From a virus, in the IMG/VR virus record IMGVR_UViG_3300006119_000028, positions 1-37,002 of that record: DNA of 37,002 nt. One strand, 5' to 3'. Under the pieces are notes generated by a model. It did not search any database and had not been told where the DNA came from. It saw only the letters and a program-made list of their open reading frames with translations. Every line of letters begins with the position of its first letter. Position 1 is the first letter of the stretch. Below are positions 4,243-28,375 of the stretch, piece by piece. Position numbers and translations under genes: made by a program.

Positions 4243-4255
4243 TATCTAAGCTCCA

Positions 4256-4891: not shown

Positions 4892-5044
4892 TTAATTATC
4901 CCCTCTTTTATTAACCAAAACTTCTTTGGTATTAGGGTCATAAATCTTCACATGCGATGAAAATTGTATTGATCCTAGTTCATTTGGCTTTTTAGCTGGA
5001 TTGGAAACCACAGTGTTTTCCTTCTTTTCTTTATTTAAATTCAT
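4892..5044 (-). CDS. Small protein (50 aa), partial paralogue of the 211-aa gene
   Basis: A short ORF of 50 codons plus TAA. Its C-terminal half, 'SSHVKIYDPNTKEVLVNKR', matches the N-terminus of the 211-aa protein ('EGFLKIYDPNNLEVFVEKK') over about 18 residues, which supports it as a real gene. The N-terminal part is Lys/Asn/Glu-rich and looks disordered. Two starts are possible. The first is ATG at 5044, with no ribosome site but lying about where a transcript from the GATAAATA box at 5050-5057 should begin, so it would be leaderless. The second is GTG at 5011, which has AAGGAA about 7 nt upstream and would give 39 aa. The TAA is followed immediately and in frame by the ATG of the 211-aa gene, so readthrough would give one 262-residue protein. 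Function unknown. Confidence 0.65.
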   Translation of the reverse strand: MNLNKEKKENTVVSNPAKKPNELGSIQFSSHVKIYDPNTKEVLVNKRGDN

Positions 5045-5064: not shown

Positions 5065-8000
5065 TTAATCCGATTGTAAGAAGGTCGCTGGCGTTGTATC
5101 AGCAATTTGTAATGGATCTCCCTCTGTTACATTATAAACACCAGGAATTGGATTCCAAGTTTGATTATAATATATTTCAGGCAATAGATTTCGTTGTAAT
5201 AATCCTAATACAGGAGTATTTACTGGAATATAAGTTTGCTGTGCTGTACCGTTTGCCCCTCTTTGTATTCCACATAATGTATTTTGACTGACTGCTGTGC
5301 CAGTTCCTGTACCAATTTGTGTACCGTTTGGATTACTTGAAATACCATCATTTGCTACAAATGTGACCCCAACTGTATTGCTACTTGCGCCTATTCGTGT
5401 AAAGTCAGTTGTACCTATGTAATCAATGGTATAAGTTTGTCCTTTGACGATATAACCAGCTTGAACTGGGCCATTGATACTTGTAAACTTGATTTGTTCT
5501 CCGTTTACGTAAACTGTGTTACCTTCTAATGCTGTGATTGTAAGATTATCACCTACATTTACGCCATTTGTTATAAAGACATAAGGATATAAGTCAATAA
5601 GTTGTACATAATAATCACTAGTTGGCAAGTAACTTGCTGTATTGTTGTTGTAAACTGTAAGACTGCTTAATGTTCTCTTATCTACATTTAATGGAATTTC
5701 GATAATATTATTAGTTTTACTTGGGGCAACTACATTTTGAACAATTGTTTGTGTTAATTGTGTCACATCTTTAACATAGATTGTGCTATCTAAATCACCA
5801 ACTGGTAATATTAACCAAGTAGTTGAACTATTAGCATTGTACACTGTTGGAACGCCATAACGATTTACATTTAAGTAGTAGCGCATCATATTAGGAGTTG
5901 CTGAAGGAACCATGCTTGTAATAGTTACACTGTCAGATTGTTGAATTGTACTTAAAATACTTATGTAATTGCCTGGATTAACACGCAATGAACTTGAAGG
6001 AACTCTGTACCCATTAATAGTTACATACAATCTATCAACATTTGTTTGTTGCCATTGGGTTACATTTACTGTTTGACCGCTAGTTGAACCCAATGTTAAA
6101 TTTGTACCATAACGACTTGTGCTTACATAGAAATGAGTGCTATCTACAATGTCGTTGACATAGTATTCTGTGCCTGTAGTAATTGCCCCTAATACTGTTT
6201 GTCCCAGACTTCCCTGAGGTGTTGTAAAATACACAGGTGTTCCAATTTGTAAACCGTTAGTTGATGATACTGTGATTTCCCCTTGTACTGTTGAAGCTGT
6301 GGCTGTTGTATCACTTATAATATAAGTACCATCTATCCAAGCATAACCACCACTTTGATAGGTTGAAACTCCAACTACTGGGCTATTTACACCTGACATA
6401 GTGTAACTTGATGTGTAAATGTCAAAATTGTTACTATCAATTACATGTACGTAATATGTGTTATTGTTAAGTTGGCTACTACCTATAATGCCATCAAGTC
6501 TTACAATGTCGTTAGTTGAAAGATTATGTGCTATTCCTGTTGTAATTCTTGTTGTACCAGCCACAGACATAACATTGTTGTTGACAAATACAATATTAGC
6601 AACTGTATTATTTGTTATTCCTGATTGAGTATGCAAATACTGATAATCGGTCAAGTTATATGTAGTTACCGCTATTGTGCCAGACGGAGCGCTGTTAAAT
6701 GTAATATTGTTATATGCTGGGCTTATAGTGTAAGTTGAAGGATCTACTCTTAAACCCTGTACTTCTACAATTGCGTTTACACTGCTGTCAGTATCAATAT
6801 AATTTGATAAATTAAATACTGTTGTCGAACCATTACCTGTAAAGATTTGAGTTTCAGGCATAGTATAACCATATTGAACTGGTGTTGTTTGACCAAACAA
6901 TGTATAACTTATGTAGTCGCTACTACCATAATTACCACTGAATATTATATCACTAGTTAAACTATCCTTTGCCAATCCAATAGCGTAATCATAAGTTACA
7001 AAACTTGAACTACCAGTAGCATTACTTAGTGTAAATGTTGAGCCGCCGTTTGTAGCTGAAATTGTAAAACTATTATTAGTTGGGTTAACTGTTTTAACAT
7101 AATATGTTTGTAAAGGAGTTATGCCACCAAAAATATTTTTATCAAATGTAACTGGTGTTCCAGATACTAATTGACTTACGCTTGCGCAAACAATAGAATT
7201 TGTGCTCGATATTGTTGTTGAAACAAAGTTTAATTGTCCAGCAACAAGTTTAGTTCCATTGTGATAAACAATTGGACTTGTCCAATAAACACCTGTTGAT
7301 CCAGCAATAATACATGTCATATCACCAATGTCATCAGCCAACGCAAAAGTTGCGCCAGCTATGCCTGTACTATTGTCAATAGTATCAGATATTGTTATAC
7401 TGCTTGTAATAGTACTAATGCTTTTAACATAATATGTTGTACCTTCAACAATATTACCAAATACGGTGCCTTGGAAGCTAATAGGTTTGTTTAATGTAAA
7501 ATTGCTTATTCCAGTAACTGTTATAGAATTTGTGCTGCTGCTTGTTGCTAATGCGTCTACTTCAATTGGCTGTGTTCCTGGTCTGATTACCCCGTTGCCA
7601 CTAGAAATCTCTCCTGCGTAATTAGCAGGAGTATGAATTGTTTCAAACCCATTTGAATTAATTACTATTGGATTATATTGTGTGCTTGATTTTACTAACT
7701 GATAACCGTTACCAACCTCATAAACATCTATTCTTAAACTATCAGTTACTGAACCGAAAGTTAAAGGTGAACTTAATGTTACTGTTTGATTAATATAATT
7801 TACAGTATAGTTATAAATTTTTGTACATAATCCAGTACTACCACTGATTACATATACTGCTATAGTTGATGGTACTTGAACTTCTGCTGAAGCAAAACTA
7901 TACACAGTTTGTAATGCTGTAGTTGGAGTTAATTGAATGCTTGTAACGCCAAATCCTGTATGCGCATATTCTGTTGGATCCCAGTTTGTACCTGGTCTTG

Positions 8001-11000
8001 TATTGACAATCATACTTAAATTGTCTGACACTACACCTGCTACTAATTCTTCAGGTCCATAACCAAAATCAAATGGAGCACCTGTTACATTATATATGGC
8101 ACTTGGAGTTTCAAATATGCCAGTTTGTGTCCAAGTTGATAAGTTATTTGATTGAATTACTGTATTATCATAACCAACCACAGTATAAGTGCCACTGTGA
8201 TAAGTAGATCCTGTTAAGTTTTGTGTTGTACCAGAAGTTTGACTTGCCCAAGTTATTCCATCTGTACTTGTTTTTATTAACCCTGTATTACCTACTGCTA
8301 CAAAATGTCCGTTAATATAATTTACATTTGTTAAGTCTGTTGTATATGGATAAGCGTACATTAATGCTAATCCAACAGTTGGATTAGTTCCGTTTAATGT
8401 AACTGCTGATCCGCCACTTGTTAAAGAAACTTGTACTTGTGTGCCATTTACTATATTTTTAATATAGTAAGTTGTGCTTGATGATATTACGTCAAATGAT
8501 TGTGTAAATCTTACAGTTTCCCCTACGGTAAATCCTGAAGTATTGCCTACGTTTATTACATTTGTATTTGTGTTGACGCCAACAATATTTGTTTCGTTGA
8601 TACCATTCCAATTTGTGCCATTGGCGCTTGTGTAAATTGCGCCGTTTTGGCCAACTGCTACTAATGTATTATTATTTGCTGTTACACTATAGAATCCATG
8701 ATAAGCAAATGATGGCACTACATTCCAAGAACTACCATTTGTACTTGTTAATACTATGTCCGTTGGTACAATTTCTGTAAAGCCAGTGCTATAATCAAAT
8801 CTTTGGCCAATGCCCACAGCAACGAATCCTGTGAATCCATTTAATGTCACATATGTTACGCCATATAACATTTCTGTCAAGTTATTATTAAATGTAAATG
8901 TTTGATTCCAATTTGTAGCATCAGTGCTTGTAATAATTGAAGACCCAACTGCTACATATACTCCATTACCATACGCGCTGTCTTGAAGTGTTAAGCCAGC
9001 TAAATTTAATGTTGTTGTTGTGCCACTTGTATAATAGCCTAAGCTACTCCAAGTTATACCGTCAACGCTTCTAAGTATAGGCGTAGCACTGTTACCTGTT
9101 GTCAATAAGTATTTGTTGTTTACAAAATTAATTGAGGTAATATCTGAATTGCTTGTTGTTAAACTTGTTACATTCCATATGTCATCAGATGTATTTGTAG
9201 CCAATGCTGCCCCTTGACTTGTATTAGCCGGAGATACATATGTTACACCATTGTAAATAATGCCAGCTAAATTAATTTGCGATGGATAGAATGGTTTATC
9301 TTGTAATTCTACATCAACTGGCAATTCTAAACTTGGCTGGAAGTAATTACCAAAATATGTGCTGTATGGATATATGGTGCCAGTCAACAACTGACTCATA
9401 TCAATAACAGGTATACCTAATTGTATTGCTCTGTCTTGATAATAACCATAACCTGGCATATTGACAGTTGGTTGATAATATCCTATAATTCTATCTAAAG
9501 CGTTTAACTCTCTTGAACCACTGTCAAGAAGTTGCCATTTACCATAGATAAACTCTTTGTCATTGTTACTGACAATACAAATATATACTTGCCCATTGAA
9601 GCGTACAACGCTTTGTTGGAAATAGAATGGTTCAGGTAAGAAAGCATAACTGCCTGCTTTGGCCATTGTCATACTTCCTGATGAAGTACCTAGGCTGATT
9701 GCTGAACCGCCTACAGTATTTGAAATTGTAATACTTGTACTTGGTGTTATACTTGCTATATAATAAGTTTGACCTAAAACGATGTTTGAATTAAAAATTG
9801 TTCCAGTAAAGACTACTGGATCATAAACATTAAATCCACTAGTGCTTGCTACTGTAATTGTTGAACTACTAGTTGCTGTAGCTGTTGTAGTCGTGAAACC
9901 AACATATGGGAATACATCAGGTAATCCGCTGACTGGTGCTGTCAACAATGGATTACTATACACTTCAAATGTATTTGTTCCTGTTACTCTCATGTAATAT
10001 TGATTTGATGTATCACTTGGAGGAGTTCCTGATACTTGAACACTTAAGATTGCTCCATAACTATCAATATTGTTTACACGCAATGTTATATCGTTAGCAG
10101 GTGAAAGCCCATCCGGTGTAATAGTTGTTCCGCTAATAGTAATAATATTGTCTATAGCAAAACCCTGTCCAGCACTTTCAATAATAGCATTATACCCACC
10201 TATTACATAACTAACTGAGAATGATGGTGTGCTTACTGGTGTTTGTTCATATGTTACAGGACCAAATTCTGTATGGCTAATTGTTACAGGAGTTGGGGTA
10301 GTACTTAATGGATTACCTGTTTCTAATGTAATATATGGTGTACCTGTTCCAATCATTAAACCATTATCATTTTGTAATACAGATTCAGAATAGTCGATAA
10401 ATCCAATCATTGGATATGTTGGTGAACTACTTGTTAGAGTTAATGCGCTTCCGCCTGGTGTAGCACTTATTGTAAAGTGTGTTAAGTCTACAATAGTTTT
10501 TACATAATATTCTGTATTCTTTGTGACTCCACCTGTGACATCTGCTACAAATGTGATTGGTGTTTCAGGGGCTAAATTTAAAGTACTATCGCAAGTAAAC
10601 TGACTTGTATTTGATCCTGTAATTTTTACAGTTTTAATTGGTGTGTAGCTAATTGTAAAGTGTTGACTATCAGTAATTGTGAATACAAAATACTGTTGAC
10701 CAATTACAACTGTTCCTAAACTTACACCTGTGAATATAATTGGCATGCCAGGATATAATACATCTGTGTTACTACAGGTTAATAAGTTTCCAGTTGATGA
10801 TGTGTTTGTTACTGTTACTGAAATGTTACCAATAGTACTTACATAATATAATCCAGCACTTAAACCATTAAATCCTGACCCAACAGTAAATGGCATATTA
10901 ACATACATATGATTTGTGCTATTAACTGAAACATAGTTAGTTGTTGTCAAAATAGCATTGATGTTGCCACTTAATTGATTGCTTATTACACCACTAGTAA

Positions 11001-14000
11001 TGCCAGCATATTGTTTGCTTGTTTGATATAATGTAAACAACTGATTTTGAACTTGACCAGGGCTGACAGGTAATGACAAGTTAATAGTCATACTGCCTGT
11101 AGCAGAACTTAATAACAATGTGTCAGATTGACTTGTTAATGTTGCGCTAGTTTCGTCATTTGCGCTTACATTACCTGGATCAAACACATTACCATTATAT
11201 TGAGTAGAAATTGTAATTTGTGTGCTATTAATAATTTGACTTACATAATAGATTGTTGATGAACTGATATTACCAAAGGTAGAACTTGCTGTTCCGTTTA
11301 TAATAGCATCGTTGATCACAAATGGTTCGTTTACGCTTAACCCAACTGTTGTTTCTAATGTTACGTATTTCGTACTTGAACTGGCTGAAACTACACCAAA
11401 TGTGGTTAAATCTGTTGTTTGAGACAATGTAAAGTTTTGTTTATCTAAAATAGTATGTACATAGTAAGTTACATTTTCAATAACTCCACCAAATACATCA
11501 CCTACAAAGAATACAGGTAATCCAATATAGAATCCAGTTGTGCCACCTGTACCTGTTGAGTTCAATGGAATAGTGAAATAACCTCTGTTTACATAACCAT
11601 TGGCTGTTGTACTTGTAACTTGTCTAATACCAGGATAATTTACAGTTAATGTTGCTGTGTTTACAACTTGAGCAACAAACATTGAACATCCTGCTACTGA
11701 AATTATCTGATTGTTTAAGCTTAATGTAGGTCCACCAACTGTTGCTGAAATTGTAAAATCAGTTAAGCTTAAAATTTCTTTTACATAATAAACTATACCA
11801 ACACTTAACCCACTGTTGCCTACACTTCCAGCAAATTGAACTGGCATGTCAACTGTCATACCAATTGTACTGCCTGAGGCATTTTCTAAATTACCGCTAT
11901 CAAGTTTTAAGCTGACGCTATTAGTTGCGCTAACAGTAGCATAAACATATCTTACTGAGCTTGACCATTCAACTTGTTGATTGTTGCCAACACTTACTAT
12001 TTCAAAACCGGCGCCATGTGCGCTAGCTAAGATGCTGCTAATTGGAGGTTGAGAATTTTGTAAAGATAGATCACTACTACTGACTTGCTCAACATTTAAT
12101 AAATCGCCAGCAAAGAAGCTACCATAGAATGCGTCTGCTTTCCAGTCTGTAACTTTTGTATTATATGTTGTTCTGTCATATTTTAATGTTACAATATTTT
12201 CTCTTACTGGAACTGCGGTTGAAACAGCACTAGCACGAGCGGTTAAGTTTAATGTATGGTTATTGCCTGTTCCTGTGCTTAAAATATTAATACGGTTTGT
12301 GTCGTTTACGCAATCAGCATAATTTTCATACAAAGCAACAATAATAGCTGGAACGGTTTCAAGTACATTTAAATAGTACCATTGATTGTTTTGTAATCCA
12401 CCTACATTCACTCCATTAGGATCACTTAAGTATTTTATTAAGTCTCCTGTTTGGAACTGTGGAGCGTAAATTTGAATTGTGTTATTTAAAATATTGACAT
12501 TGTTGCTACTGAATGGAACTGTAACTGCTGTGTCAAATATAATTTCTGGAAGAACGGCATAGCCTCTGCCTGGATTAATAACATTTACACCTACTACAGT
12601 ATCTAAACTCATGACTGCTTCTAACACTGCTGCTTCTTTTGGAGCAGGGTATATGCTTGTGTCAATATAAGCTAGTACTCTTGGTGGGTTTTGATAGCCT
12701 CGTGAACCATTCAATAACAGCACAGCAGGCAAATCTATTATAATATCTGATCCTGGTAAGTGAGTTTGAACAGTTGTTTGGTTGTAACCTCTAATTAATT
12801 GACTTAAAACATTTGTAGCACGATCTACATGTCCATAGGCAATTTGTTCAGTACCAATAGTAATCACACCATTGATTGGGAAACCACTAGCATTGTACAC
12901 AACAATGAAGCTGCTGCCTAAACTTATATATGCTTTTAATGTTGTGATAGTTACATCAGTTTGACCTGTTAAACTTACACCATAATTTTCAAACCAGTCA
13001 TTGTATTGTTGTTCTTGCCAAATTTCTGCTGTTGGCAAGTAAGTTGTAGTATTGTCTGGATTTTCATAGACAAGTTCTGGACTTACAAACTGTTCAATTG
13101 TAGAATTATAACCAGCAGGTAAATCAAAATCAGTTAATGTACCAGCATACAATTCATTACCTGTATAAACATATGTAAAGTTCTTAATAAAGACGTGGAA
13201 TGGTAATGCTTCAGTCAAGTATTTTGATAAGAAATCTTGATTATCACTTTGATAATTTTCTAATGGAAGCAAGTTTCTAATATTGTGAGATACATCAACT
13301 AAGCTTGTTTTGTTTAACCATGTAAGATAATTTTGTGATGATGTTGCTTCACTTTGAATATATTCAAACATCAAAATCAAACTTTGATTTCTATAAATTA
13401 ATAATTCACTTGTGTAAATTTGTTCATTTAATGCTCTAATAATCCAATATGTTTCTTCTGAAGGATAATTGTCATAACTACTTGTGCCATAGAAATTACC
13501 TGCCCAGCCATATCCCGCGCTAGCATAATCATATAGACTACTGCTAAACTGTATAGTTCCGTTTTGTAATCCTATTCTAATCCAGCTATCAGTAGCACTT
13601 GAATAGATATACCATTCATTTAAACCTTTACCGTTTTTCTGAACTTTTGCTATTGTTTTGTCTGCTACTGTTAGTGTTGACAAATCAGCATAAATGCTAA
13701 CAACAACATTTGCTCTTACACTATCATCATAGCCTGGTGCCCACCAGTTTACATAAGTCCAATAATCTTGTGTGTTATAAAATTCGCCGCTGGCAAACAA
13801 GAATGTAGCATTTTCTCTTGTTTCAGCTATAGGATATTGTGCCAATGTACTATTAGCAAATAAAATATAGTTTTGTAAGGCAATAAATCTGTCTAAGAAG
13901 AAACTTTGTCTTGGTCTTGCGCTAATACCAGTTTGTACTGCTAGCGGCAAGAATGGATCTGGTACTACTTGTCCTAAACCGTCAACGCCTGACAAGCTGT

Positions 14001-17000
14001 ATAAGAATCTACGATATAATAATGTTGGTTCAGGAGTTTCTAGTGTTGGCAATCCTGGCAAGAAATCTTCATAATAATTTTGTTTAATTAAAGCATATTC
14101 ACTATGATATTCGTCATCTGTTTTTCCAGTTGAATATCCAATGTTAAGAACACTTGTATTGCCGTTTAATAATTGTTGACTGTTATAAACACTAAACACA
14201 CTTGGCAAGACTGGTGCTAGATAACTTATACCAGAATAGAATGGATAAGCAATATAAGTTGCTATAGTATTATCACTTAATGTTTTGCCTATATTTTCAA
14301 AAATTATGCTACTATTTCTTACCCAGAAATAATAAACAACTGTTGCTTCTTGTGAACTGTTTAATATAGTTTCAATAGAGAATAAGTTTGTGTTGTATGG
14401 TATACCTGGACCTTGATAGCTACTAGGTGGAACTGCGCTTTCTATCCATGAATAGACAGCGACATCACTGCCTGGGAATACTGTTCCCCAGTATGCGCTG
14501 TTATATGTAACATCATTTTGATGATAGTTTACAAAACGTACGTTTGATGTATTAAACCAAATATTACCAACTTTTTCTTTGCCCCATACTACTGATTGTT
14601 GTGTTACATTACCGTTGTTATAGCTAGCAGGGTCGATTTGACTAACAACATCAATGTTTTCTGCTACTATACCAAATAATTTTCCTTGTAGTGGATCAAA
14701 ATAATCTAAATGTAAAAGTGTTTGGTTATTTTGAGAATTAAAAATTTGAGTATAACCAATACGATTAATATCAACGATTGGAGATGTTTGACGCAATACT
14801 GACCAGTCTTGAGTTCCTACAGTGTTTACATAAGTTACAACTTGTCCGTAACCTAATGTAAAGCTATCATTGAAGTTATTGGGAATGCCAGCAAATTTAC
14901 TTGAGCCTATTACAACTCTATTACCTACAAAGTCTAGTGCTGTGCCATACATTGGCTGATTGCCATACACTAAATCATTTGCGTTTACACTTTGAGCATA
15001 AACAAAATTTCCAACATTGTTTATTGTTTCATTGAAATCTTCTAAGTAATCAAACATATAAACAGCACCAGCATTTGGGAATGTGTCAATAAACTGTGTG
15101 GTGTTGTTATCAAAGATTGTATCATTGTCTGGATATTGTATGTTATCAAATGTTGTATCTTCATATCTTGTGCCAACTGGCGCACTAGCTACAAAGCTGC
15201 CATATTCATTGAATTTAACAGTTGTACCAAACTGTGTTGCCCCATCTTCGTGTGGACAAAGTATTGTTTGAGTTAATGTATATGGAGTAATACCTAATTC
15301 TGTTAAAGCTGCGCTATCAAGTGTTGAAATTAACAATTTTTCATTTGCTTGTGCTAAGTCATTATTAATTATACTAATTGTTAAAATGTTATTACTTGCT
15401 GATGCTGTAACATTTATAATATTAGCTTGAATGATTGCCTGTGCTGCTGATGCTGCGTCACCAACTGGAAGAACAGCTTCAAATCCATTGATTAAAATAG
15501 TTCTTTGTTGTGTTAGATTAACAGCACTTGTGCCTGTGATGGTACCAAATCTACCGCCACTATTTGTGAATCTATATACAGCGCCTTCAACTAATTGAGT
15601 TGTTAATTCAAACGGTGCGCCAACAATGATTTCTGTGCCATATGCTGTTGTATCAACACTGTTACCAAACTGTACACCTACTTCAGGTGTTGATTCTGTA
15701 GTTAAAGATTGAACTTTTGTGAATACATTGTCACTGACATTAACAATGTCACCAGCTGTTAATTGTCCTGTGTAAATTAATGTTGATCCAGCAACAGCGT
15801 AATTGCTGTCATCTACAAGATTACCATTTACACTTACATATAAAGGATCTGTTTGTACATTGACATTGAAATATAAACCAGTCGCATTAGTTAATGAAAC
15901 TGGGGTTGTTGATGATCTTGAAGTTTTAATGGTGATGTTACTGCCACTGATACTGTTTATGTAATAAACAACATATGGAACTACACCACTGTTGCCAAAA
16001 TTCACTGATGCTAATGCTGTGCCAGTTCCTGACCCTACGCCTGTTGCTGTAAATACTACACCAACGTTATTACTACCTGCGCCAATAGCTGTGAAGTCTG
16101 TAGTACCTACGCTGTCAATAGTGTAAGTTACACCTACAACAAAACTACCTGCTACTGTTGGAGTTGTAAATGCTGTAAACATCACGGGTTGATTTACACT
16201 AAATCCTGTCATGTCGGCATTACATTGTATAATAGTACCGCTGCTTACAGCATTTGCTGTTCTATCTACGTGTGTTGGTGTCCATGCTAAATTAAATTTG
16301 CTAATTATGTCAATATTTGTAAATTGTGCTACGAAGTTTTGAACGCTACGTTGATAGACATATGAACTACCCCAATTTGAAATTGTTGAAGGAACATATT
16401 CAACTCCTGGTGCGCCAATCACAACTGTGTCGCCATAATAGTCAGTTGCTATGCTGTTACCAAATTTATCTCCACTTGAACTAAAGAGGCTACCATCGAT
16501 AACTGTAGAATATTTGTATGATATTTGTGTAGCTGTGCCTGTGCCTGACCCTGCGCCTGTTGCTACAAATATTGTACCTACTGTGTTTGTAATCGGTGTA
16601 GCGCAAATAGTCTTAAAGTTAGTTGTGCCAACACTAGTAATGATATATGTTTCACCTGCTACAAAATATCCTGCTTGTAAAGGTATATTTTGTTTTCTAT
16701 AAACATAAACTTTATTGTCAGCACTATCACCAACATATAACCAGTTAGTGTCATTAGACAATGCCAAACTATTTCCAAAGACTGTAGCCCCACCGGGTGC
16801 GGCTATCTCTTGTGTTTCTGTTAAATAATCGCTTAATATTGAATTGTTAAGTGTGTAAATGTAAATTTTAGGTGTGCCAGTTGGTTGACTGATAACATAA
16901 GTTAAACCTTCATTGACCATGCTAGTGCCATATGATACATCACTACCTGTTAATGTTTGGAAAATATCATAATTTGTTGTAATAACATTATAGTCATAAC

Positions 17001-20000
17001 GATATACTTCGCCTAACTTGTTATCACTAATTAGATATCCACCTAATAATTCATTATAAAGCACTGCCGCGCCAAAAGCTAAAGTTTCAGCGTGATTTAT
17101 TTCTTGTTCATAATTGTAGTTTAATGTTTTTTGATATACTGCCCAACCACCATCTGTGTTTGTATCTACCCAAACAGTGTTTGGTTCAAATTCAAATGCT
17201 AATAAAGGCAAGTTAGCTATATCACCTGGAGTACTTACTCTTTGCGATGATAGCATCATGCCTACACCTATACCATTGATTGCTCTTGTTGTAGTGCTTA
17301 GTGATAATGAAATTGTTACTTGTGTTAAACTTACAACATTCAATACTGAATAATAACCATTTACATTAGTGTTAAAGTTTACAATAGCAAACAAATCATA
17401 TTGTTGTAAATTATGTGGTGTGGCAAATGTTACAACACATGTGCTGTTTAAATTGTTTTGTACATTAATAACTTGGTTAATTGCTATAGGCGTGTAGACA
17501 TTCCATTTGTTTAGATAGTTTGCTATCCATACATAATCACCTACATAAAAATTGCTTAATGGTACAAGTGTGCCTTGTTGATTAACTGCTGAACCTAATT
17601 GACTGTAAAAATATGAAACCATTTTTACATCGTTATAGTTTACATAACCTGCGTCAGGTAATAAAACACTAGGAGCATATGGTATTGTTGGCAGTACGTT
17701 AACATCGTTTACTGGCTCACTAAAGTTGTAAAGTGAGTATAACGGAACTTCTTGTTCTACCCCTGGTATTGAAACTCCATCAGTTAACCCAACAATAAAT
17801 GGATTTCCTGCTAACTGTGCTGCGTCTAACTTAAATTGAATAAAGTTGTTATTTAATACACCGCCATATTTTGATGTTTGAATAGCCCAGTTTTCGTATA
17901 CGTTGTAATTAATTGAACCTTGTGGTAAGTTTGCCCCAACAAATGCGCTTACAGCATTTGTACTACCTTTTGTTTTAATTAAATTTTGATAGACATTAAC
18001 TTGTGTTTCGTCAGTTAAATCAACTAACGCAGCATAGTCTCTTGGTCTGTACCCAATCAAACTGTAACCTAATAGGTTAGCATCTGGATTTAAAGCAGTT
18101 GAATTAATATCATAGTATCGTGTGCTATCTAAGCTGTTAGTACTGCTGTTTGGCAATAAACCATTTTGAATCTGTCCATAATTACTAATCATCCAATATT
18201 TTTGTTGGAAGGTTGCGCTTGGTTGAACAATTTGTTGTGCGACCCAATATTGATTTTTGTAAAGAACGATTTCGCCTTTGGTATATCTTAATGAAGGATC
18301 CCACTGTTGTATGTTTGTCTGATTTATGATAAAGCCTGAAGCATTATATGTGCCGTCCCAGTTAGCTGTTTTAGCACCTCTTACATAAATTCTGTTTTGT
18401 CTTATGCCAGTAATTAAATCATAAATTGTATCATTAAACAATGTGTAATTATCAAACACTACAGCGTTTTCAAAATTGCTTAAATTAAATTGACCATAGC
18501 TAATTGTATCGCCTTTGTTTAATGCTGCTACTGTAAATTCTGTTCCATTACGAACAATGTTTAAATCTGAATTTTTAATTGGATATAAGTTTTGATTTAA
18601 TACAAAGTTAATACCTTGTAAACTCAATGGCTGTACAATTTGATTTTCTTTGTCAATAGTTAATTCATAAGCAGCAGGGTTAAGTGCTATAGTAGCACCT
18701 GCTGACCAACCAACTTGTGTCCAATATAAATATTCCGCTATCATTTGTTGCCAGTCAACAACGACACTATCAACTTGATATTGATAGGCAGCGCCTTGAC
18801 TGACTAAGTATGCGCCATAACTCGCTAAGAATTGTGCTACTTGATTAGTATTAATAAAAGTTGTTCCATATGGTACAACTTCGACTGTATCGCTATAATT
18901 TTTTGCTACTTTAACTGTTACGTTGTCTATAGTAATAAAGTTATATTGTCCATCATTCTTTGGTTTTAATACATTGAAATAAGCTGTTGTTTGACTGTTT
19001 CCATTAACACTATAGAAATATTGTGGTGTTAGTTGAACAAGCACACTACTGTATATAAGTTTTTCATATGGAGGATTGCTATATAGCAATACTTGATAGC
19101 TAGCATCAGGTATCAACAATGAACTGTTGTTGCTATTTGGATTTGTACTTTGTACATAGAAGTTTAATAAGTTTTGATCGCTATAACCAGCTAAACGATA
19201 TACTAAACGTACATCAATGTTGTTTAGTAATTCAGTTAGTGTTGTTGTACCATCAATACCAAATTGTTTTTGATAGTCTACTATCCAGTTGATATAACTT
19301 GTAACTGGTGTGCCATTGCCATATACAGGAATGTCAGTAATAATAAGATGACTTCTGTTGTTAACAAGATATTGATTAAATTCACTGTTGTATTTGTAGT
19401 CATCTACCCAAACACCTAAATTGAAAAATTCTGCTGGTTTAGTTAACGCCTGTATTCTCATTAAATCAAACGGCCAAGTGCTGCTGCGTCTGTAACTTAA
19501 TTCTACAGGGCCAACATCTCCAACTTGCCAATTGTTTTCAAAACTACCCGAGTAGTAATTTCCTACAACGCTTACAAATGGGCTGACAAGATTACCTTGA
19601 GTGTCAACTGGCAATATAGTTGTAAGACCTGGTCTTACAGCTTCAGGTATTATTCTGCTGTCGCCATTGTTATAATCAAATCCTATTTCAAGGTCTCCCC
19701 ACAATACTAAGTTGTTACTTGTATATGGAGCACTACCATAACGACTTGTCCACCAAGTTGGTTCGTTGCTATAACCTAACATTTCCCATGGAGTTGTGTT
19801 AGGAGTAAATGTGTCATAGAAATATTGATAGATACCTCTCCAGTAACCTATGCCTATTTGTGAATTATCTAACTTATTATTAGTTGTTCTATAGTTCCAA
19901 CTTAATTCATCTGTTGAACTATAATATTGAGTTTGATATGTTAATCTATTTTGACCAACCCAATTTAAGAATCCTTGTTGATAGATTTCGATAAATTCTT

Positions 20001-23000
20001 GGTAGCTATATTGATTATTTCTAAAGTAACCAGGCAAAATGTCATACAGTTGAACTGGAACTGTATTACTTAATTTTAAGTTGTTGTATATTCTTTTTTC
20101 AAATTCTAATAAAGCTTGGTCTCTATAATCTACTAATGTGTCTGTTTCAACAATATAGTCGCCATATAGTTTATTATAACTGCCATCATGCCCTTTAATA
20201 AAATATGTTGGCTGACTATAATCGCTATCTAATACAACTTCTGGAATAAATGCTGGATACAATCCAAGTTTTGTAGGTGTATTTGGTACAAAACTACCAT
20301 AAGTTTGGTTGTACTCGTTAATTGTAACTACATCGCCTGGCATCAATTCAATAACGATTTCTAAACTAGGAGCAGTAGAACTGACAATATAATCTACTCC
20401 ACGTACTAATTGTTTTGTTGTTGTAAGATTATCTACTGTTCTAGCCAAGTATACAAGTACACCGTTATAGTTAGCTTGTGAAAAATCATAAACTTGACTT
20501 AAAGGATATACTGTAACTTGTAAATTGTTTTCAAAGGTATAAACATTTGAAGCATAAGGAGATTTTGCTGGTAGCATGTCGCTCCAGAAGAAACTTTGAT
20601 TATTACTTTTTGTTGCTGTAATAATATCCAATGCTGTGTTTAATACATATGCTGGATCATAACGTTGATCAAATGGATAATTGTTAACCGTAGCTACAAT
20701 TAAATTTTTGTAGTTAATATATTGTTTGCTGTTGTATGACAATGAATCAAAAAGATTGAAATCTAAATTGCGTAAGAATGTTCCTGGCAATACTAAGCTT
20801 GCGCTGTTTTGAATGATAGCATTACCATAAGGAACAATGTTTCCTAAGTTTCTATAGTTGTTATTGCCAAATACATCACCTGTAATGTAAGGACAATTAT
20901 TAAAGATACTTACATATTGTCTTCTTATATCGCCAACGTTGGCTGTTGTAATATTACCATTTAATGGGTTATTACTTAAGTTGATAGGTACTTGATAGTA
21001 TGCTACGCTGCTTACATCATTGCTTAATACTAAGACTTGAATTAAAGTATTTGTAATTTCTACAGGTACAGTTACTGTGACAGTTGTAATCGGTGTGCCA
21101 TTAGCTAATGCCCCAAGTGTTACAGTATAATTACTTGAATTTTGAATTACATTGTTTACATAAACTTGTAGTACAGGCCATGGACTGTCAGTTGAAGGTA
21201 TTGGTTGTACATCTAATACAAATGTAGCTGTTGGGTTTGAATCACGATACCAGTTATATTCAAATATTTGATATTGTACACTTGGCCCTACTGCTGTTTG
21301 CCAGCCCAATAATCTTTCATAAGTTGTTAAATCAATATCATTATAAACATAACCTGTATTAACATTTACTGTAACAGGATTACTTTCGCTTACATAATTA
21401 AATGTATCGCTGTTGAATGAAATATCAAAACTAATATCACCTATATTGTCTACAGAACTATAACGTAGTGGAAATCCTAAAATAGGATCGTTTGTGCCTG
21501 TGCCAATACCGTAGGCTATTAATTTACAGCCGGCAAAACTAGTTCCTAGATATACGTCACTGTTACCAAAACTAATACCATTGCTGTCAAATACATCAAA
21601 CAATGGAGCTTGATTGTTATTTGTTTTTTCTTGTGATTGTGTCCAAACTAAACCATTATACCAATAACTATAACCCTGACTGTTATAACCTCTGAAAACA
21701 ACTACTTGGTTGTTTGCTTCTATTGTGCCATCTGGTGCTTCAGATAATGTGATCACAGGGGGTTGTCCTGCTGTAATGACACTAAAGCTAGTTACAAATA
21801 TTTTTGCGTTTTGTTCTGGGTCGTTGGCAAATACTATTCTTGCGCCAGGAAAAAGTTTGTAATTGTTATTATTTGCTGGGTTAGCAACAAGTGATAAGTT
21901 ATTTGTTAAACTTATTGTTTTGTTATAGTCATAGCCAATTCCAATTGTCAAAGTTGTACCATCATTAGCTAATGAAGTAATTTGACTGTTTGGTGGTAAT
22001 ATATTTTGACTATCATTGATATACATACCAACAGCAAATGTGCCACTTATATCATCTAACGGAACTGTTGCTGTTGTAAATAATGCGTTAGCTGTTCCAG
22101 TACCTGATGCTGTTGTAACAACATTAACAATCATACCTGCTTGGTATGTTACTCCTGTAGTACCTGCTACTGTATTCCAATTAGTAGTACCTGTACTTGT
22201 AATAACATAGTTTTGTCCAACTACTAAACTACCACTATTAACATTTAGTGAACTTGCGTCAAGTGTAGCATTGTATGTTGTGTAAACATCAACGTCAGGA
22301 TAATATACATATTGTCCAGCAACTTGATTTAAACAGTCAGTTGTTCTAAAATCAATAAAGTCAATAGGATCTTTGCCTACTGTGCCACTGTTAAACAATC
22401 TTAGATTTGGGTAAAACTCAATAATAGGTCTTACTGCTTTAAACTGTTCATTAGCATATGTTGTTAAGATACTAGGATCATTGTTATACTGTGCTGTAGC
22501 TTGAATAACATCGATGTGGAACCAACGATTACCTCTAGACCAAGCATTTCTATTAATTGCTTCTCTGGCAATAGTAATATAATCAGGGGTAACAGGAATA
22601 TACAAACTATCGTCATAGTTAGCTGTGTCATAGTTTGTACTAGCGTATGGAGTTAAAATGTCGCCTGTGAATTTTTCTGGTACGACAAAATTTGTAACTG
22701 GTAATAATTCAATAGCAACACCAACACCTTGTACATAATATTGACCAGTCAAATAACTAGAAGGAATAATATCTCCTACAAATTGTACTTTTAATCCATT
22801 TGTAAAGACTACACCATTGCTTGCTGTATAATTCTTTTTACCTAATATCTCTGTTTCAATATCAATTTGATTTGTAATATTAGCATCAGCAATTTTAATT
22901 ACACCAACTTGATCAGGATTTGTACCGTCTTGATAGTATAGTGTTGTTAATGGAGCAGAAATGTATGGTATCATTTCAATATTGTTATATTGATCTAAGA

Positions 23001-24417
23001 AGAAATTTAATCCGCCGTATGTGTTACCATATACTGCTGTAATTTTTTGATTTACTGGGATTTGTCCTGCTACGCTCAAGCTAATAATAGGATTGTTTGG
23101 ATCTCCAATATATGTTATTTTGTAGAAATTTGAATTTACAACGCTATAGTATCCTTGTTCGTATTCCATAGCATTGATTTGACAATTCATAGTGCCAGTT
23201 GCGTTCTGCATTGCTACAACTGGGCCACCAATTACTAAACTAATTGTAAATTCTGTGGCACTAACAATTTCACTGACATAATATAATACAGCTTGTGTGA
23301 TATTACCTTGACTATCAGTAAGTGAAGGAATAATTGTACCAATTGGTGTACCTGTAAAAGCAACTGTTTGATTTACAAACATTCCTGTTGTACTATTACA
23401 TGTAATTACATTGCCTGTGCTTGATGTACTTGTAATTGTAATATTTTGAGGTGCTGTGATATCATTATCGTTTTCAGCATATGGAGTATAATCTAAAAAG
23501 TTTGATGTATATCCCTGCTCATTTGGTACTCCAGTATCATAAAACATTACTGTTAAGCCATTAAGACTTGTTACACCATCAATATTTTGTAATGACGATA
23601 AGGGTTTACCATTTAAATTTTCATATGAAACGTTACTGACAACACTTACTAGATTGTTACCAGGGAAATTGTATCCATTTTGTGCGTCGGCAGGAGGAAC
23701 AGTAAATGTTACTACTCCTGATTCAGCGCCATTGTTGTTAACACCTAAAATTTGTCTTACACTTTGATTTGGATTGTTTGCGCTTTTGCCAGAAACTCCT
23801 GGTTCGCCCTGAATCCAAAATTGTGTATTTTGATTTACAATAAATTCATAGACACCATCTCTTAGTAATGTAATAGTAGGATTAATACTACCGCCTAGTG
23901 CTCCTGCTAAAGCAATTTGATAGCCACTTGGTTCTGGTGTCACTACAAATGTTTCTGTGCTATAAACAGTTCCTGCGCCAACTGTTACAGCTGGAGGACC
24001 TACATCTAACCAGTAATATTGATTATAGTTTATCAATGAGTCAAGGTTAATAAAACTATCCCAAGAATAGAATTGACCATTGAATAATCTATTATTATTG
24101 TCTGCTATACCCCCATTTTGATTTACAGCATCAATAATACCAGGATAACTTATAAAATCTTTGGCTGTACTTGTATTTGGTTGAGTAAAAACAATACCTG
24201 GGTCAAGTTGATAGTTTGTTCTTGTTCTATCAGGTTCTGTTACATAATAATCATTAGCGTTAACACCGTATCCAAAACGATTGCCTACGTAGCCTTGTAT
24301 TTGTTCTAAATTAGGTGGATTTACTAATTGATCGAGAGTAGCACCTAAAAACTGTTGGTTAGTAGTTGTTTGAAATATCTCTGGTAAAAAATCTAAAGTT
24401 CTAATTAATGGTGCCAT
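5065..24417 (-). CDS. Giant baseplate/tail structural protein (6450 aa)
   Basis: A single uninterrupted frame of 6450 codons. I chose the ATG at 24417 (MAPLIRTLDFLPEIF); a TTG two codons upstream at 24423 is better spaced from an AGGAT and cannot be excluded. Residues 1-150, with 'FLGATLDQLVNP' and 'DSFINLDSLINYNQYYWLD', resemble the start of the very large structural protein that follows gp6 in T4-like marine phages, the place of T4 gp7. Residues about 2450-3190 hold FG-GAP-like blades ('FGNS....G..VVIGAP....VYVY'). Residues about 4150-4670 hold an array of 'YYV..I....FTIS' repeats. Residues about 5080-5430 hold Asp-box/Ycf48-like repeats ('G.FVAVG..G.I.TS.DG..W'). The 'GTT(D/N)F' module appears four times. 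Near the C-terminus there is 'FTGNGSTTVFNLS', common in tail fibres. No enzyme motif, signal peptide or membrane segment is seen. T4 gp7 is only about 1030 aa, so this may take over several wedge or fibre functions. Confidence 0.85.
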   Translation of the reverse strand: MAPLIRTLDFLPEIFQTTTNQQFLGATLDQLVNPPNLEQIQGYVGNRFGYGVNANDYYVTEPDRTRTNYQLDPGIVFTQPNTSTAKDFISYPGIIDAVNQNGGIADNNNRLFNGQFYSWDSFINLDSLINYNQYYWLDVGPPAVTVGAGTVYSTETFVVTPEPSGYQIALAGALGGSINPTITLLRDGVYEFIVNQNTQFWIQGEPGVSGKSANNPNQSVRQILGVNNNGAESGVVTFTVPPADAQNGYNFPGNNLVSVVSNVSYENLNGKPLSSLQNIDGVTSLNGLTVMFYDTGVPNEQGYTSNFLDYTPYAENDNDITAPQNITITSTSSTGNVITCNSTTGMFVNQTVAFTGTPIGTIIPSLTDSQGNITQAVLYYVSEIVSATEFTISLVIGGPVVAMQNATGTMNCQINAMEYEQGYYSVVNSNFYKITYIGDPNNPIISLSVAGQIPVNQKITAVYGNTYGGLNFFLDQYNNIEMIPYISAPLTTLYYQDGTNPDQVGVIKIADANITNQIDIETEILGKKNYTASNGVVFTNGLKVQFVGDIIPSSYLTGQYYVQGVGVAIELLPVTNFVVPEKFTGDILTPYASTNYDTANYDDSLYIPVTPDYITIAREAINRNAWSRGNRWFHIDVIQATAQYNNDPSILTTYANEQFKAVRPIIEFYPNLRLFNSGTVGKDPIDFIDFRTTDCLNQVAGQYVYYPDVDVYTTYNATLDASSLNVNSGSLVVGQNYVITSTGTTNWNTVAGTTGVTYQAGMIVNVVTTASGTGTANALFTTATVPLDDISGTFAVGMYINDSQNILPPNSQITSLANDGTTLTIGIGYDYNKTISLTNNLSLVANPANNNNYKLFPGARIVFANDPEQNAKIFVTSFSVITAGQPPVITLSEAPDGTIEANNQVVVFRGYNSQGYSYWYNGLVWTQSQEKTNNNQAPLFDVFDSNGISFGNSDVYLGTSFAGCKLIAYGIGTGTNDPILGFPLRYSSVDNIGDISFDISFNSDTFNYVSESNPVTVNVNTGYVYNDIDLTTYERLLGWQTAVGPSVQYQIFEYNWYRDSNPTATFVLDVQPIPSTDSPWPVLQVYVNNVIQNSSNYTVTLGALANGTPITTVTVTVPVEITNTLIQVLVLSNDVSSVAYYQVPINLSNNPLNGNITTANVGDIRRQYVSIFNNCPYITGDVFGNNNYRNLGNIVPYGNAIIQNSASLVLPGTFLRNLDFNLFDSLSYNSKQYINYKNLIVATVNNYPFDQRYDPAYVLNTALDIITATKSNNQSFFWSDMLPAKSPYASNVYTFENNLQVTVYPLSQVYDFSQANYNGVLVYLARTVDNLTTTKQLVRGVDYIVSSTAPSLEIVIELMPGDVVTINEYNQTYGSFVPNTPTKLGLYPAFIPEVVLDSDYSQPTYFIKGHDGSYNKLYGDYIVETDTLVDYRDQALLEFEKRIYNNLKLSNTVPVQLYDILPGYFRNNQYSYQEFIEIYQQGFLNWVGQNRLTYQTQYYSSTDELSWNYRTTNNKLDNSQIGIGYWRGIYQYFYDTFTPNTTPWEMLGYSNEPTWWTSRYGSAPYTSNNLVLWGDLEIGFDYNNGDSRIIPEAVRPGLTTILPVDTQGNLVSPFVSVVGNYYSGSFENNWQVGDVGPVELSYRRSSTWPFDLMRIQALTKPAEFFNLGVWVDDYKYNSEFNQYLVNNRSHLIITDIPVYGNGTPVTSYINWIVDYQKQFGIDGTTTLTELLNNIDVRLVYRLAGYSDQNLLNFYVQSTNPNSNNSSLLIPDASYQVLLYSNPPYEKLIYSSVLVQLTPQYFYSVNGNSQTTAYFNVLKPKNDGQYNFITIDNVTVKVAKNYSDTVEVVPYGTTFINTNQVAQFLASYGAYLVSQGAAYQYQVDSVVVDWQQMIAEYLYWTQVGWSAGATIALNPAAYELTIDKENQIVQPLSLQGINFVLNQNLYPIKNSDLNIVRNGTEFTVAALNKGDTISYGQFNLSNFENAVVFDNYTLFNDTIYDLITGIRQNRIYVRGAKTANWDGTYNASGFIINQTNIQQWDPSLRYTKGEIVLYKNQYWVAQQIVQPSATFQQKYWMISNYGQIQNGLLPNSSTNSLDSTRYYDINSTALNPDANLLGYSLIGYRPRDYAALVDLTDETQVNVYQNLIKTKGSTNAVSAFVGANLPQGSINYNVYENWAIQTSKYGGVLNNNFIQFKLDAAQLAGNPFIVGLTDGVSIPGVEQEVPLYSLYNFSEPVNDVNVLPTIPYAPSVLLPDAGYVNYNDVKMVSYFYSQLGSAVNQQGTLVPLSNFYVGDYVWIANYLNKWNVYTPIAINQVINVQNNLNSTCVVTFATPHNLQQYDLFAIVNFNTNVNGYYSVLNVVSLTQVTISLSLSTTTRAINGIGVGMMLSSQRVSTPGDIANLPLLAFEFEPNTVWVDTNTDGGWAVYQKTLNYNYEQEINHAETLAFGAAVLYNELLGGYLISDNKLGEVYRYDYNVITTNYDIFQTLTGSDVSYGTSMVNEGLTYVISQPTGTPKIYIYTLNNSILSDYLTETQEIAAPGGATVFGNSLALSNDTNWLYVGDSADNKVYVYRKQNIPLQAGYFVAGETYIITSVGTTNFKTICATPITNTVGTIFVATGAGSGTGTATQISYKYSTVIDGSLFSSSGDKFGNSIATDYYGDTVVIGAPGVEYVPSTISNWGSSYVYQRSVQNFVAQFTNIDIISKFNLAWTPTHVDRTANAVSSGTIIQCNADMTGFSVNQPVMFTAFTTPTVAGSFVVGVTYTIDSVGTTDFTAIGAGSNNVGVVFTATGVGSGTGTALASVNFGNSGVVPYVVYYINSISGSNITIKTSRSSTTPVSLTNATGLYFNVNVQTDPLYVSVNGNLVDDSNYAVAGSTLIYTGQLTAGDIVNVSDNVFTKVQSLTTESTPEVGVQFGNSVDTTAYGTEIIVGAPFELTTQLVEGAVYRFTNSGGRFGTITGTSAVNLTQQRTILINGFEAVLPVGDAASAAQAIIQANIINVTASASNNILTISIINNDLAQANEKLLISTLDSAALTELGITPYTLTQTILCPHEDGATQFGTTVKFNEYGSFVASAPVGTRYEDTTFDNIQYPDNDTIFDNNTTQFIDTFPNAGAVYMFDYLEDFNETINNVGNFVYAQSVNANDLVYGNQPMYGTALDFVGNRVVIGSSKFAGIPNNFNDSFTLGYGQVVTYVNTVGTQDWSVLRQTSPIVDINRIGYTQIFNSQNNQTLLHLDYFDPLQGKLFGIVAENIDVVSQIDPASYNNGNVTQQSVVWGKEKVGNIWFNTSNVRFVNYHQNDVTYNSAYWGTVFPGSDVAVYSWIESAVPPSSYQGPGIPYNTNLFSIETILNSSQEATVVYYFWVRNSSIIFENIGKTLSDNTIATYIAYPFYSGISYLAPVLPSVFSVYNSQQLLNGNTSVLNIGYSTGKTDDEYHSEYALIKQNYYEDFLPGLPTLETPEPTLLYRRFLYSLSGVDGLGQVVPDPFLPLAVQTGISARPRQSFFLDRFIALQNYILFANSTLAQYPIAETRENATFLFASGEFYNTQDYWTYVNWWAPGYDDSVRANVVVSIYADLSTLTVADKTIAKVQKNGKGLNEWYIYSSATDSWIRIGLQNGTIQFSSSLYDYASAGYGWAGNFYGTSSYDNYPSEETYWIIRALNEQIYTSELLIYRNQSLILMFEYIQSEATSSQNYLTWLNKTSLVDVSHNIRNLLPLENYQSDNQDFLSKYLTEALPFHVFIKNFTYVYTGNELYAGTLTDFDLPAGYNSTIEQFVSPELVYENPDNTTTYLPTAEIWQEQQYNDWFENYGVSLTGQTDVTITTLKAYISLGSSFIVVYNASGFPINGVITIGTEQIAYGHVDRATNVLSQLIRGYNQTTVQTHLPGSDIIIDLPAVLLLNGSRGYQNPPRVLAYIDTSIYPAPKEAAVLEAVMSLDTVVGVNVINPGRGYAVLPEIIFDTAVTVPFSSNNVNILNNTIQIYAPQFQTGDLIKYLSDPNGVNVGGLQNNQWYYLNVLETVPAIIVALYENYADCVNDTNRINILSTGTGNNHTLNLTARASAVSTAVPVRENIVTLKYDRTTYNTKVTDWKADAFYGSFFAGDLLNVEQVSSSDLSLQNSQPPISSILASAHGAGFEIVSVGNNQQVEWSSSVRYVYATVSATNSVSLKLDSGNLENASGSTIGMTVDMPVQFAGSVGNSGLSVGIVYYVKEILSLTDFTISATVGGPTLSLNNQIISVAGCSMFVAQVVNTATLTVNYPGIRQVTSTTANGYVNRGYFTIPLNSTGTGGTTGFYIGLPVFFVGDVFGGVIENVTYYVHTILDKQNFTLSQTTDLTTFGVVSASSSTKYVTLETTVGLSVNEPFVINDAIINGTASSTFGNISSSTIYYVSQIINSTQITISTQYNGNVFDPGNVSANDETSATLTSQSDTLLLSSATGSMTINLSLPVSPGQVQNQLFTLYQTSKQYAGITSGVISNQLSGNINAILTTTNYVSVNSTNHMYVNMPFTVGSGFNGLSAGLYYVSTIGNISVTVTNTSSTGNLLTCSNTDVLYPGMPIIFTGVSLGTVVIGQQYFVFTITDSQHFTISYTPIKTVKITGSNTSQFTCDSTLNLAPETPITFVADVTGGVTKNTEYYVKTIVDLTHFTISATPGGSALTLTSSSPTYPMIGFIDYSESVLQNDNGLMIGTGTPYITLETGNPLSTTPTPVTISHTEFGPVTYEQTPVSTPSFSVSYVIGGYNAIIESAGQGFAIDNIITISGTTITPDGLSPANDITLRVNNIDSYGAILSVQVSGTPPSDTSNQYYMRVTGTNTFEVYSNPLLTAPVSGLPDVFPYVGFTTTTATATSSSTITVASTSGFNVYDPVVFTGTIFNSNIVLGQTYYIASITPSTSITISNTVGGSAISLGTSSGSMTMAKAGSYAFLPEPFYFQQSVVRFNGQVYICIVSNNDKEFIYGKWQLLDSGSRELNALDRIIGYYQPTVNMPGYGYYQDRAIQLGIPVIDMSQLLTGTIYPYSTYFGNYFQPSLELPVDVELQDKPFYPSQINLAGIIYNGVTYVSPANTSQGAALATNTSDDIWNVTSLTTSNSDITSINFVNNKYLLTTGNSATPILRSVDGITWSSLGYYTSGTTTTLNLAGLTLQDSAYGNGVYVAVGSSIITSTDATNWNQTFTFNNNLTEMLYGVTYVTLNGFTGFVAVGIGQRFDYSTGFTEIVPTDIVLTSTNGSSWNVVPSFAYHGFYSVTANNNTLVAVGQNGAIYTSANGTNWNGINETNIVGVNTNTNVINVGNTSGFTVGETVRFTQSFDVISSSTTYYIKNIVNGTQVQVSLTSGGSAVTLNGTNPTVGLALMYAYPYTTDLTNVNYINGHFVAVGNTGLIKTSTDGITWASQTSGTTQNLTGSTYHSGTYTVVGYDNTVIQSNNLSTWTQTGIFETPSAIYNVTGAPFDFGYGPEELVAGVVSDNLSMIVNTRPGTNWDPTEYAHTGFGVTSIQLTPTTALQTVYSFASAEVQVPSTIAVYVISGSTGLCTKIYNYTVNYINQTVTLSSPLTFGSVTDSLRIDVYEVGNGYQLVKSSTQYNPIVINSNGFETIHTPANYAGEISSGNGVIRPGTQPIEVDALATSSSTNSITVTGISNFTLNKPISFQGTVFGNIVEGTTYYVKSISTITSSITISDTIDNSTGIAGATFALADDIGDMTCIIAGSTGVYWTSPIVYHNGTKLVAGQLNFVSTTISSTNSIVCASVSQLVSGTPVTFDKNIFGGITPLQTYYVKTVNPTNNSFTISATNGGSTFTLSNATGSSSFVTYDYAIGLAKDSLTSDIIFSGNYGSSDYISYTLFGQTTPVQYGYTMPETQIFTGNGSTTVFNLSNYIDTDSSVNAIVEVQGLRVDPSTYTISPAYNNITFNSAPSGTIAVTTYNLTDYQYLHTQSGITNNTVANIVFVNNNVMSVAGTTRITTGIAHNLSTNDIVRLDGIIGSSQLNNNTYYVHVIDSNNFDIYTSSYTMSGVNSPVVGVSTYQSGGYAWIDGTYIISDTTATASTVQGEITVSSTNGLQIGTPVYFTTPQGSLGQTVLGAITTGTEYYVNDIVDSTHFYVSTSRYGTNLTLGSTSGQTVNVTQWQQTNVDRLYVTINGYRVPSSSLRVNPGNYISILSTIQQSDSVTITSMVPSATPNMMRYYLNVNRYGVPTVYNANSSTTWLILPVGDLDSTIYVKDVTQLTQTIVQNVVAPSKTNNIIEIPLNVDKRTLSSLTVYNNNTASYLPTSDYYVQLIDLYPYVFITNGVNVGDNLTITALEGNTVYVNGEQIKFTSINGPVQAGYIVKGQTYTIDYIGTTDFTRIGASSNTVGVTFVANDGISSNPNGTQIGTGTGTAVSQNTLCGIQRGANGTAQQTYIPVNTPVLGLLQRNLLPEIYYNQTWNPIPGVYNVTEGDPLQIADTTPATFLQSD
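5300..5440 (-). repeat. GTTDF module, copy 4 (giant protein, about residues 6326-6372)
   Basis: Encodes 'YTIDYIGTTDFTRIGASSNTVGVTF', in outline, followed by a Gly/Thr-rich tail ending GTGTGTA. It matches the copies near 16015-16130 and 16540-16655 and, more weakly, 22090-22220. It lies close to the C-terminus and ends next to a predicted strand leading into the final domain. Confidence 0.7.
8110..9180 (-). repeat. Asp-box / Ycf48-like repeat region in giant protein
   Basis: About residues 5080-5430 of the giant protein repeat the pattern 'NN.(Y/F)(V/L).(V/T)G......(I/L)..S.DG..W', for example ILRSVDGITWSS, IITSTDATNWNQ, VLTSTNGSSWNV, IYTSANGTNWNG and IKTSTDGITWAS. The S-x-D/N-G-x-x-W turn is the hallmark of BNR/Asp-box and photosystem-assembly Ycf48-type beta-propellers. 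Six or so blades can be counted, with a 'YYI..I' repeat inserted in the middle. In virions such propellers are usually binding platforms; no sialidase catalytic residues are evident. Confidence 0.65.
10400..11960 (-). repeat. Array of 'YYV..I...FTIS' repeats in giant protein
   Basis: About residues 4150-4670 consist of six or more copies, roughly 60-80 residues each, of a unit with the order 'L......P(V/I).F.G...GG....TYYV..I.....FTIS...GG....L'. More scattered copies occur near bases 23150-23430, 9650-9880, 8340-8560, 7300-7560, 7020-7220 and 6110-6300. The units look like small all-beta domains that build a long stalk or plate edge. The copies are diverged at DNA level. Confidence 0.7.
16015..16130 (-). 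repeat. GTTDF module, copy 3 (giant protein, about residues 2762-2800)
   Basis: Encodes 'YTIDSVGTTDFTAIGAGSN', then VGVVFTATGVGSGTGTA. It lies between two FG-GAP-like blades and is very close in sequence to the copy at 16540-16655. Confidence 0.72.
16540..16655 (-). repeat. GTTNF module, copy 2 (giant protein, about residues 2590-2625)
   Basis: Encodes 'YIITSVGTTNFKTICATPI', then NTVGTIFVATGAGSGTGTAT. It is inserted right after the blade ending VYVYRKQN. It is the nearest neighbour of copy 3, about 520 bp away, and probably arose from the same duplication. Confidence 0.72.
22090..22220 (-). repeat. GTTNW module, copy 1 (giant protein, about residues 735-775)
   Basis: Encodes 'YVITSTGTTNWNTVAGTTG', then VTYQAGMIVNVVTTASGTGTA. 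It keeps the same order as the other three copies (Y-I/V-I/T, GTT-N/D-aromatic, V/A, small Gly/Thr tail GTGTA) but is the most diverged. Confidence 0.6.
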
Positions 24418-28367: not shown

Positions 28368-28375
28368 TATTTATC
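28368..28375 (-). promoter_or_regulatory. Late-promoter-like box GATAAATA before gp25
   Basis: GATAAATA on the minus strand, spanning the TAA stop (28371-28373) of the 837-aa gene. Transcription would start near 28362, about 11 nt before the gp25 ATG, with the AGAG ribosome site inside that leader. Confidence 0.58.

Follow-up and report, generated by a model that had tools for sequence, protein, structure and literature searches.

The 37,002-base viral stretch analysed here, referred to throughout as the window, encodes an exceptionally long open reading frame at the place where T4 has separate baseplate genes 7, 8, 9 and 10. A preliminary description proposed that the product may be either a fusion of such proteins or an extreme expansion building the outer baseplate as one chain. 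The question raised by this locus is therefore whether the frame is authentic, to which family its product belongs, and what part such a chain might play in the tail.

Authenticity of the giant open reading frame

The frame starts with an ATG at position 24417 (complement), its coding portion spans 5068-24417 and its stop codon occupies 5065-5067. Coordinates, codon count and stop analysis all confirmed the earlier claim of a single frame of 6,450 stop-free codons that takes up 52% of the window. A stop-free run of this length has a chance of approximately 10^-221 at the base composition of the window, GC content by codon position was steady along the frame, and stops were abundant in the other five frames. 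The entire window was found to be base-for-base identical to part of a 70,561-base IMG/VR contig, and 14 of 16 related IMG/VR contigs had one uninterrupted frame of 6,218-6,911 aa at the same place, some of these 14 being near-identical to one another. Ten distinct further orthologues (6,216-6,902 aa) could be aligned end to end with the window protein, at 50-53% identity. Repeated modules within the chain, described below, could confuse an assembly, but the identical longer contig and the ten divergent orthologues, all collinear with it from N to C terminus, demonstrate that the frame is neither an assembly join nor mis-read; a sequencing artefact joining several genes, which had been named as one of the observations that would undo the proposal, was thus ruled out, with negligible probability remaining.

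Genetic context of the giant gene

The gene set of the window is that of a contractile-tail baseplate operon (Table 1). The same-strand order, upstream first, comprises genes for a phrog_12050 protein, the gp53-like, hub-region and gp5-like proteins, an 837-aa protein, gp25 and gp6, with gp53 and gp25 as separate genes; downstream of gp6 are the giant gene, a gene for a 211-aa protein, two fibre-like genes and a cut-off gene. The placement of the giant gene directly after gp6 was likewise borne out, as only 14 bases separate the two and the upstream gene is gp6-like by PHROG profiles; HMM-HMM comparison of this protein with T4-like gp6 returned an E value of 5.8e-6. The gene order 53-27-5-25-6-giant is conserved, with a 303-kb contig (G002) displaying nearly the same order as the window, and PA5oct and RaK2 displaying it with small changes.

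Homologues of the 211-aa protein were identified near the giant gene in G002, PA5oct, Atu_ph07 and RaK2, and its assignment as gp8, gp9 or gp11 was not supported. The two fibre-like proteins have an N-terminal anchor domain in common, and the weak Peptidase_G2-like C-terminus of one of them (520-1743) suggests a self-cleaving fibre tip. Between the gp5 and gp25 genes (28371-30884) lies the gene for the 837-aa protein, which is serine-, alanine- and glycine-rich, has a GC content above its surroundings, and is without a match in Pfam and PHROGs, in G002 and in the loci of PA5oct, Atu_ph07 and RaK2 that were searched. In Atu_ph07 (L002 38175-44336), the giant and fibre genes are followed by radical-SAM genes, and the corresponding place in G002 (170-184 kb) has several ORFs with cysteine-rich starts; a conserved link of these ORFs to the tail module is possible.

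Table 1. Genes of the window, and blocks, domains and modules of the giant protein, with window coordinates.
Feature	Residues or length	Coordinates	Strand	Evidence or remarks
Fibre-like protein	 	520..1743	(-)	Peptidase_G2-like C-terminus (below Pfam cut-off)
Fibre-like protein	 	1780..4242	(-)	N-terminal anchor domain and Gp53-like_C tip
211-aa protein	211 aa	4256..4891	(-)	phrog_11259
Giant ORF, phrog_10938 virion structural protein (expanded)	6,450 aa, 702 kDa	5065..24417	(-)	
gp6-like baseplate wedge protein	1,138 aa	24432..27848	(-)	phrog_10646 E=1e-237; phrog_219 E=1.7e-17
gp25-like baseplate wedge protein	 	27902..28351	(-)	Pfam GPW_gp25
gp5-like hub/lysozyme-family protein	 	30885..32390	(-)	
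Hub-region virion protein	 	32403..34685	(-)	phrog_11190
gp53-like wedge protein	104 aa	34689..35003	(-)	Own gene
Giant: N-terminal block	1-150	23968..24417	(-)	Common to PA5oct, Atu_ph07 and RaK2; E 4.7e-18 to 3.5e-34
Giant: beta domain	~180-260	23638..23880	(-)	Placement inferred
Giant: M2 module (FCCH-like barrel)	329-409	23191..23433	(-)	
Giant: conserved core block	520-700	22318..22860	(-)	
Giant: M1 module (GTTDFT type)	729-776	22090..22233	(-)	
Giant: main conserved core	890-2220	17758..21750	(-)	Motifs PWEMLGF and FY..LI..KGT
Giant: M1 module	2583-2629	16531..16671	(-)	
Giant: FG-GAP repeat	2647-2688	16354..16479	(-)	Above Pfam cut-off
Giant: M1 module	2757-2801	16015..16149	(-)	Nested within M2 module
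Giant: conserved core block	3190-3800	13018..14850	(-)	
Giant: M2 module cluster	4160-4915	9673..11940	(-)	
Giant: BNR/Ycf48-like repeat region	5090-5480	7978..9150	(-)	Repeat pattern read in sequence
Giant: further M2 modules	5282-6115	6073..8574	(-)	
Giant: M1 module	6321-6375	5293..5457	(-)	Within C-terminal domain

Membership of a jumbo-phage virion protein family

Profile searches matched the giant protein to phrog_10938 (E=7e-188), and it is an enlarged member of this known family of jumbo-phage virion proteins. Its N-terminal 2,500 residues were matched in only 57 annotated phage records, belonging to PA5oct-like and RaK2-like phages, CBB, GAP32, 121Q, Atu_ph07, Phosso, SCTP-2 and similar large phages, whilst nothing in the annotated phage collection matched its C-terminal 1,950 residues. 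At least 589 stretches in IMG/VR encode relatives of its core. Core relatives were also found on contigs assigned to MAGs that bear the names Pelagibacter, Rickettsiales, Porticoccaceae and Betaproteobacteria (L204-L207), and these are probably phage contigs.

The cultured-phage homologues, RaK2 ORF070 (3,326 aa), CBB_236 (3,340 aa), PA5oct gp355 (3,857 aa) and Atu_ph07 gp180 (4,449 aa), are considerably shorter than the 6,450-residue window protein, but share its order of blocks and its place, the homologue being located directly after gp6 in PA5oct, Atu_ph07, RaK2, CBB and G002. Window profile segments covering residues 1-150, 520-700, 890-1375, 1370-1830, 1830-2220 and 3190-3800 matched the jumbo-phage proteins collinearly, with further, weak landmarks near residue 4950 and at the C-terminus. 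The record annotation of the PA5oct homologue gives ESI-MS/MS detection in virions, and 21 peptides of CBB_236 were obtained from CBB virions (PMC5259590); virion detection thus pertains to these two homologues, the window phage being uncultured. Records of phrog_10938 carry nothing beyond ‘virion structural’, and the available portions of the RaK2, Atu_ph07, MIJ3 and Alcyoneusvirus papers give no function. Giant predicted proteins of up to 7,694 aa have already been noted in huge phages (PMC7162821), and in the available portion of that paper some of these proteins, which are of the same size class as the window protein, were tentatively called structural, but, unlike here, were not assigned a family, place or growth mechanism.

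Several domains were recognised outside the collinear blocks. The beta domain at residues ~180-260 was present in the class of 6k proteins and in five of six other members checked, and was not detected in the jumbo isolates. This domain, for which Foldseek of the N-terminal model returned weak laccase matches, is probably of the YHYH/cupredoxin type that occurs in fibre and connector proteins of cyanophages. The FG-GAP match recurred in six of nine family members and marks a probable propeller region, and a BNR/Ycf48-like Pfam match was obtained in one of nine (E 1.9e-5). Sequence searches of the PDB with profiles of all parts of the giant protein yielded nothing useful.

Comparison with T4 gp7, gp8, gp9 and gp10

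Consistent with the earlier remark that none of these genes is seen separately, gp7, gp8, gp9 and gp10 profiles returned no match across the 70-kb contig of which the window is part. The T4 gp7 profile recognised T4 but gave no match in eight related records, and no credible gp8 or gp9 emerged from the relatives searched, which extend to 490 kb; the Tail_P2_I model was uninformative, missing T4 itself as well. As the giant protein occupies the place of these genes, such results would be expected of a true fusion, in which a single chain unites the gp7, gp8, gp9 and gp10 functions and makes up the entire outer baseplate. The tested parts of the chain were nevertheless without similarity to these proteins: when the N-terminal block, the core and block 3190-3800 were each compared by HMM-HMM with T4-like gp7, gp8, gp9 and gp10, probabilities stayed below 1%, whilst the positive control, gp6 to gp6, gave E=6e-6. 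Matches of phrog_438 in the Atu_ph07 giant were to repeats at profile positions 185-280, essentially outside the stretches of this profile that match T4 gp8 (3-86, 139-185 and 441-478). Comparison of the FY..LI..KGT motif with FYSTKGIEAS of T4 gp7 reached a profile probability of 1.6%, and this likeness is consequently retained as a lead only.

Structure prediction, suggested earlier as a means of recognising T4 baseplate proteins within the chain, did not recover them in the N-terminal and core regions modelled. A pLDDT of 84.8 was reached for the N-terminal 1,200 residues, and no T4 baseplate chain was among the PDB matches listed by Foldseek for this model. The core was modelled less well (pLDDT 71, with the KGT-motif stretch mostly below 50), and its matches were mainly to barrels of the FCCH type (UBA1/UBA6) and to endosialidases of phages. 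The fold comparison therefore covers the N-terminal and core models, is uninformative at the KGT-motif stretch, and has the C-terminal 2,600 residues outside its range.

The search for separate genes had a divided outcome, the window genome itself being incomplete: gp7, gp8 and gp9 were not found in the relatives, whilst gp10-type domains are on genes of their own, as a gp10-like C-terminal domain in PA5oct (gp358, E=2.7e-13) and a gp10-type N-terminal motif on a 179-aa protein in G002. The half-length relatives in RaK2, PA5oct and Atu_ph07 (3.3-4.5k aa) likewise lack any detectable separate gp7, gp8 or gp9, hence the 6,450-residue form has swallowed no extra genes relative to its family. The absence of gp7-gp10 similarity in the tested blocks and the separate gp10-type domains favour an expansion of the protein's own family over a fusion of T4 genes. 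Of the two alternatives first put forward, it is thus the expansion that is supported, by gene order, virion homologues and collinear size classes, whereas the fusion, which is also at odds with growth through small modules, appears quite unlikely.

The great length and many domains of the chain might also be accommodated by a polyprotein cut after translation into several baseplate proteins, whose separate products would account for the unseen gp7-gp10 genes; no protease domain was found in the giant protein with Pfam, and we consider such processing very improbable.

Growth of the chain through small beta modules

Three collinear size classes were distinguished, of 3.3-4.4k, 4.7-5.0k and 6.2-6.9k aa. 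Two types of module, M1 and M2, are distributed unevenly among them: none was found in the PA5oct, Atu_ph07 and RaK2 homologues, members of 4,669-4,985 residues show the landmarks of the N-terminus, the core and the C-terminus in unchanged sequence with almost no M1 or M2, and proteins of the largest class each carry 8-16 M2 and 1-11 M1 modules. M2 is FCCH-like by Pfam in eight of nine members, the same barrel type that Foldseek returned for the core model. The M2 cluster at residues 4160-4915 is largely missing in the 4.7-5.0k class, and the window protein alone, among 11 aligned orthologues, carries M1 at residues 6321-6375. Where a block occurs in only some of the orthologues, it was largely built of M1 and M2 modules, and module count correlated with length (rank correlation 0.65, 11 sequences), which explains size only in part. 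The size series and module counts show that the chain grew as small beta modules, some of them nested, were inserted in frame.

The M1 copies of the window are not recent duplicates, since their DNA identity is only 60-74%. M1 and M2 peptides gave no tblastn match in annotated phages, possibly owing to the low-complexity filter. Within the best 80 IMG/VR loci (L208-L287), 83 M1-bearing ORFs were detected, and only 16 of these matched the giant family; the others include complete ORFs of 262-1,795 aa. Judged by its sequence distribution, M1 looks like a promiscuous in-frame cassette.

A proposed role in the baseplate wedge

The (gp6)2-gp7 assembly is the conserved wedge core of contractile machines, and gp7-type partners range from 242 aa (XM1 gp17) to 1,032 aa (T4) (PMC10457771). 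The giant protein holds the gene position of the gp6 partner in every relative checked, directly after gp6 as is T4 gp7, and like T4 gp7 and XM1 gp17 it is presumably a one-chain partner of the gp6 dimer, though at 6,450 aa it is far larger than either, and neither its sequence nor its well-modelled N-terminal fold points to T4 gp7, the KGT-motif core region being poorly modelled. We propose, with a probability of roughly 0.6, that it serves the contractile tail of a jumbo phage as a single-chain scaffold of the baseplate wedge, placed where gp7 would be and expanded toward the outer baseplate. Equivalence to gp7 is based on gene order and not on detected homology, and gene position alone does not fix the function of the protein.

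In such a scaffold, each of the six wedges would combine a gp6 dimer with the conserved parts of the chain (residues 1-150, 520-700, 890-2220 and 3190-3800); the core would meet gp6, with the KGT-motif region as a candidate contact. The small beta modules would have been inserted in-frame into the loops and linkers of this collinear scaffold and, together with the propeller-like regions, may form arms of the outer baseplate; these would bear the fibres whose genes lie immediately downstream and keep them apart, and might also contact glycans. In T4, each tail contains six copies of gp7 (PMC3004832); six copies of the giant protein, if built in as T4 gp7 is, would by arithmetic add ~4.2 MDa to the virion. 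Wedge location, copy number, arm geometry and glycan contact are all features that we infer. Module uptake by wedge proteins has a precedent in the Herelleviridae, where one such protein contains inserted carbohydrate-binding modules (831 versus 341 aa; PMC11406892). A bolder version of the scaffold model, in which one 700-kDa chain per wedge with new folds replaces gp7, gp8 and gp9/gp10 and is remodelled by small, mutually nested beta cassettes that pass from loop to loop among phage proteins conserved in other respects, is doubtful.

The giant protein could instead be a tail-fibre or whisker protein, that is, a long appendage encoded after gp6 by chance and not part of the wedge. Its repetitive T/N/V/S-rich beta modules, the domain it has in common with cyanophage fibre and connector proteins and the fibre genes directly downstream are all compatible with an appendage, but the position after gp6 is fixed in distant phages, the conserved core is long and collinear, and the separate fibre genes have an anchor domain of their own. 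Moreover, the family occurs in both the whiskered CBB and RaK2, whilst the whiskers of CBB are a departure from the typical RaK2-like form (PMC5259590). An appendage is accordingly unlikely.

Implications for the family

The family to which the giant protein belongs was already known; it is the size of the protein that is unusual, and its mode of growth that is informative. With the scaffold proposal, phrog_10938, which is common in IMG/VR and present in cultured jumbo phages, gains a role based on gene order, and its members provide a clear size series for how a baseplate protein could grow from 3.3k to 6.9k residues whilst keeping a collinear core.
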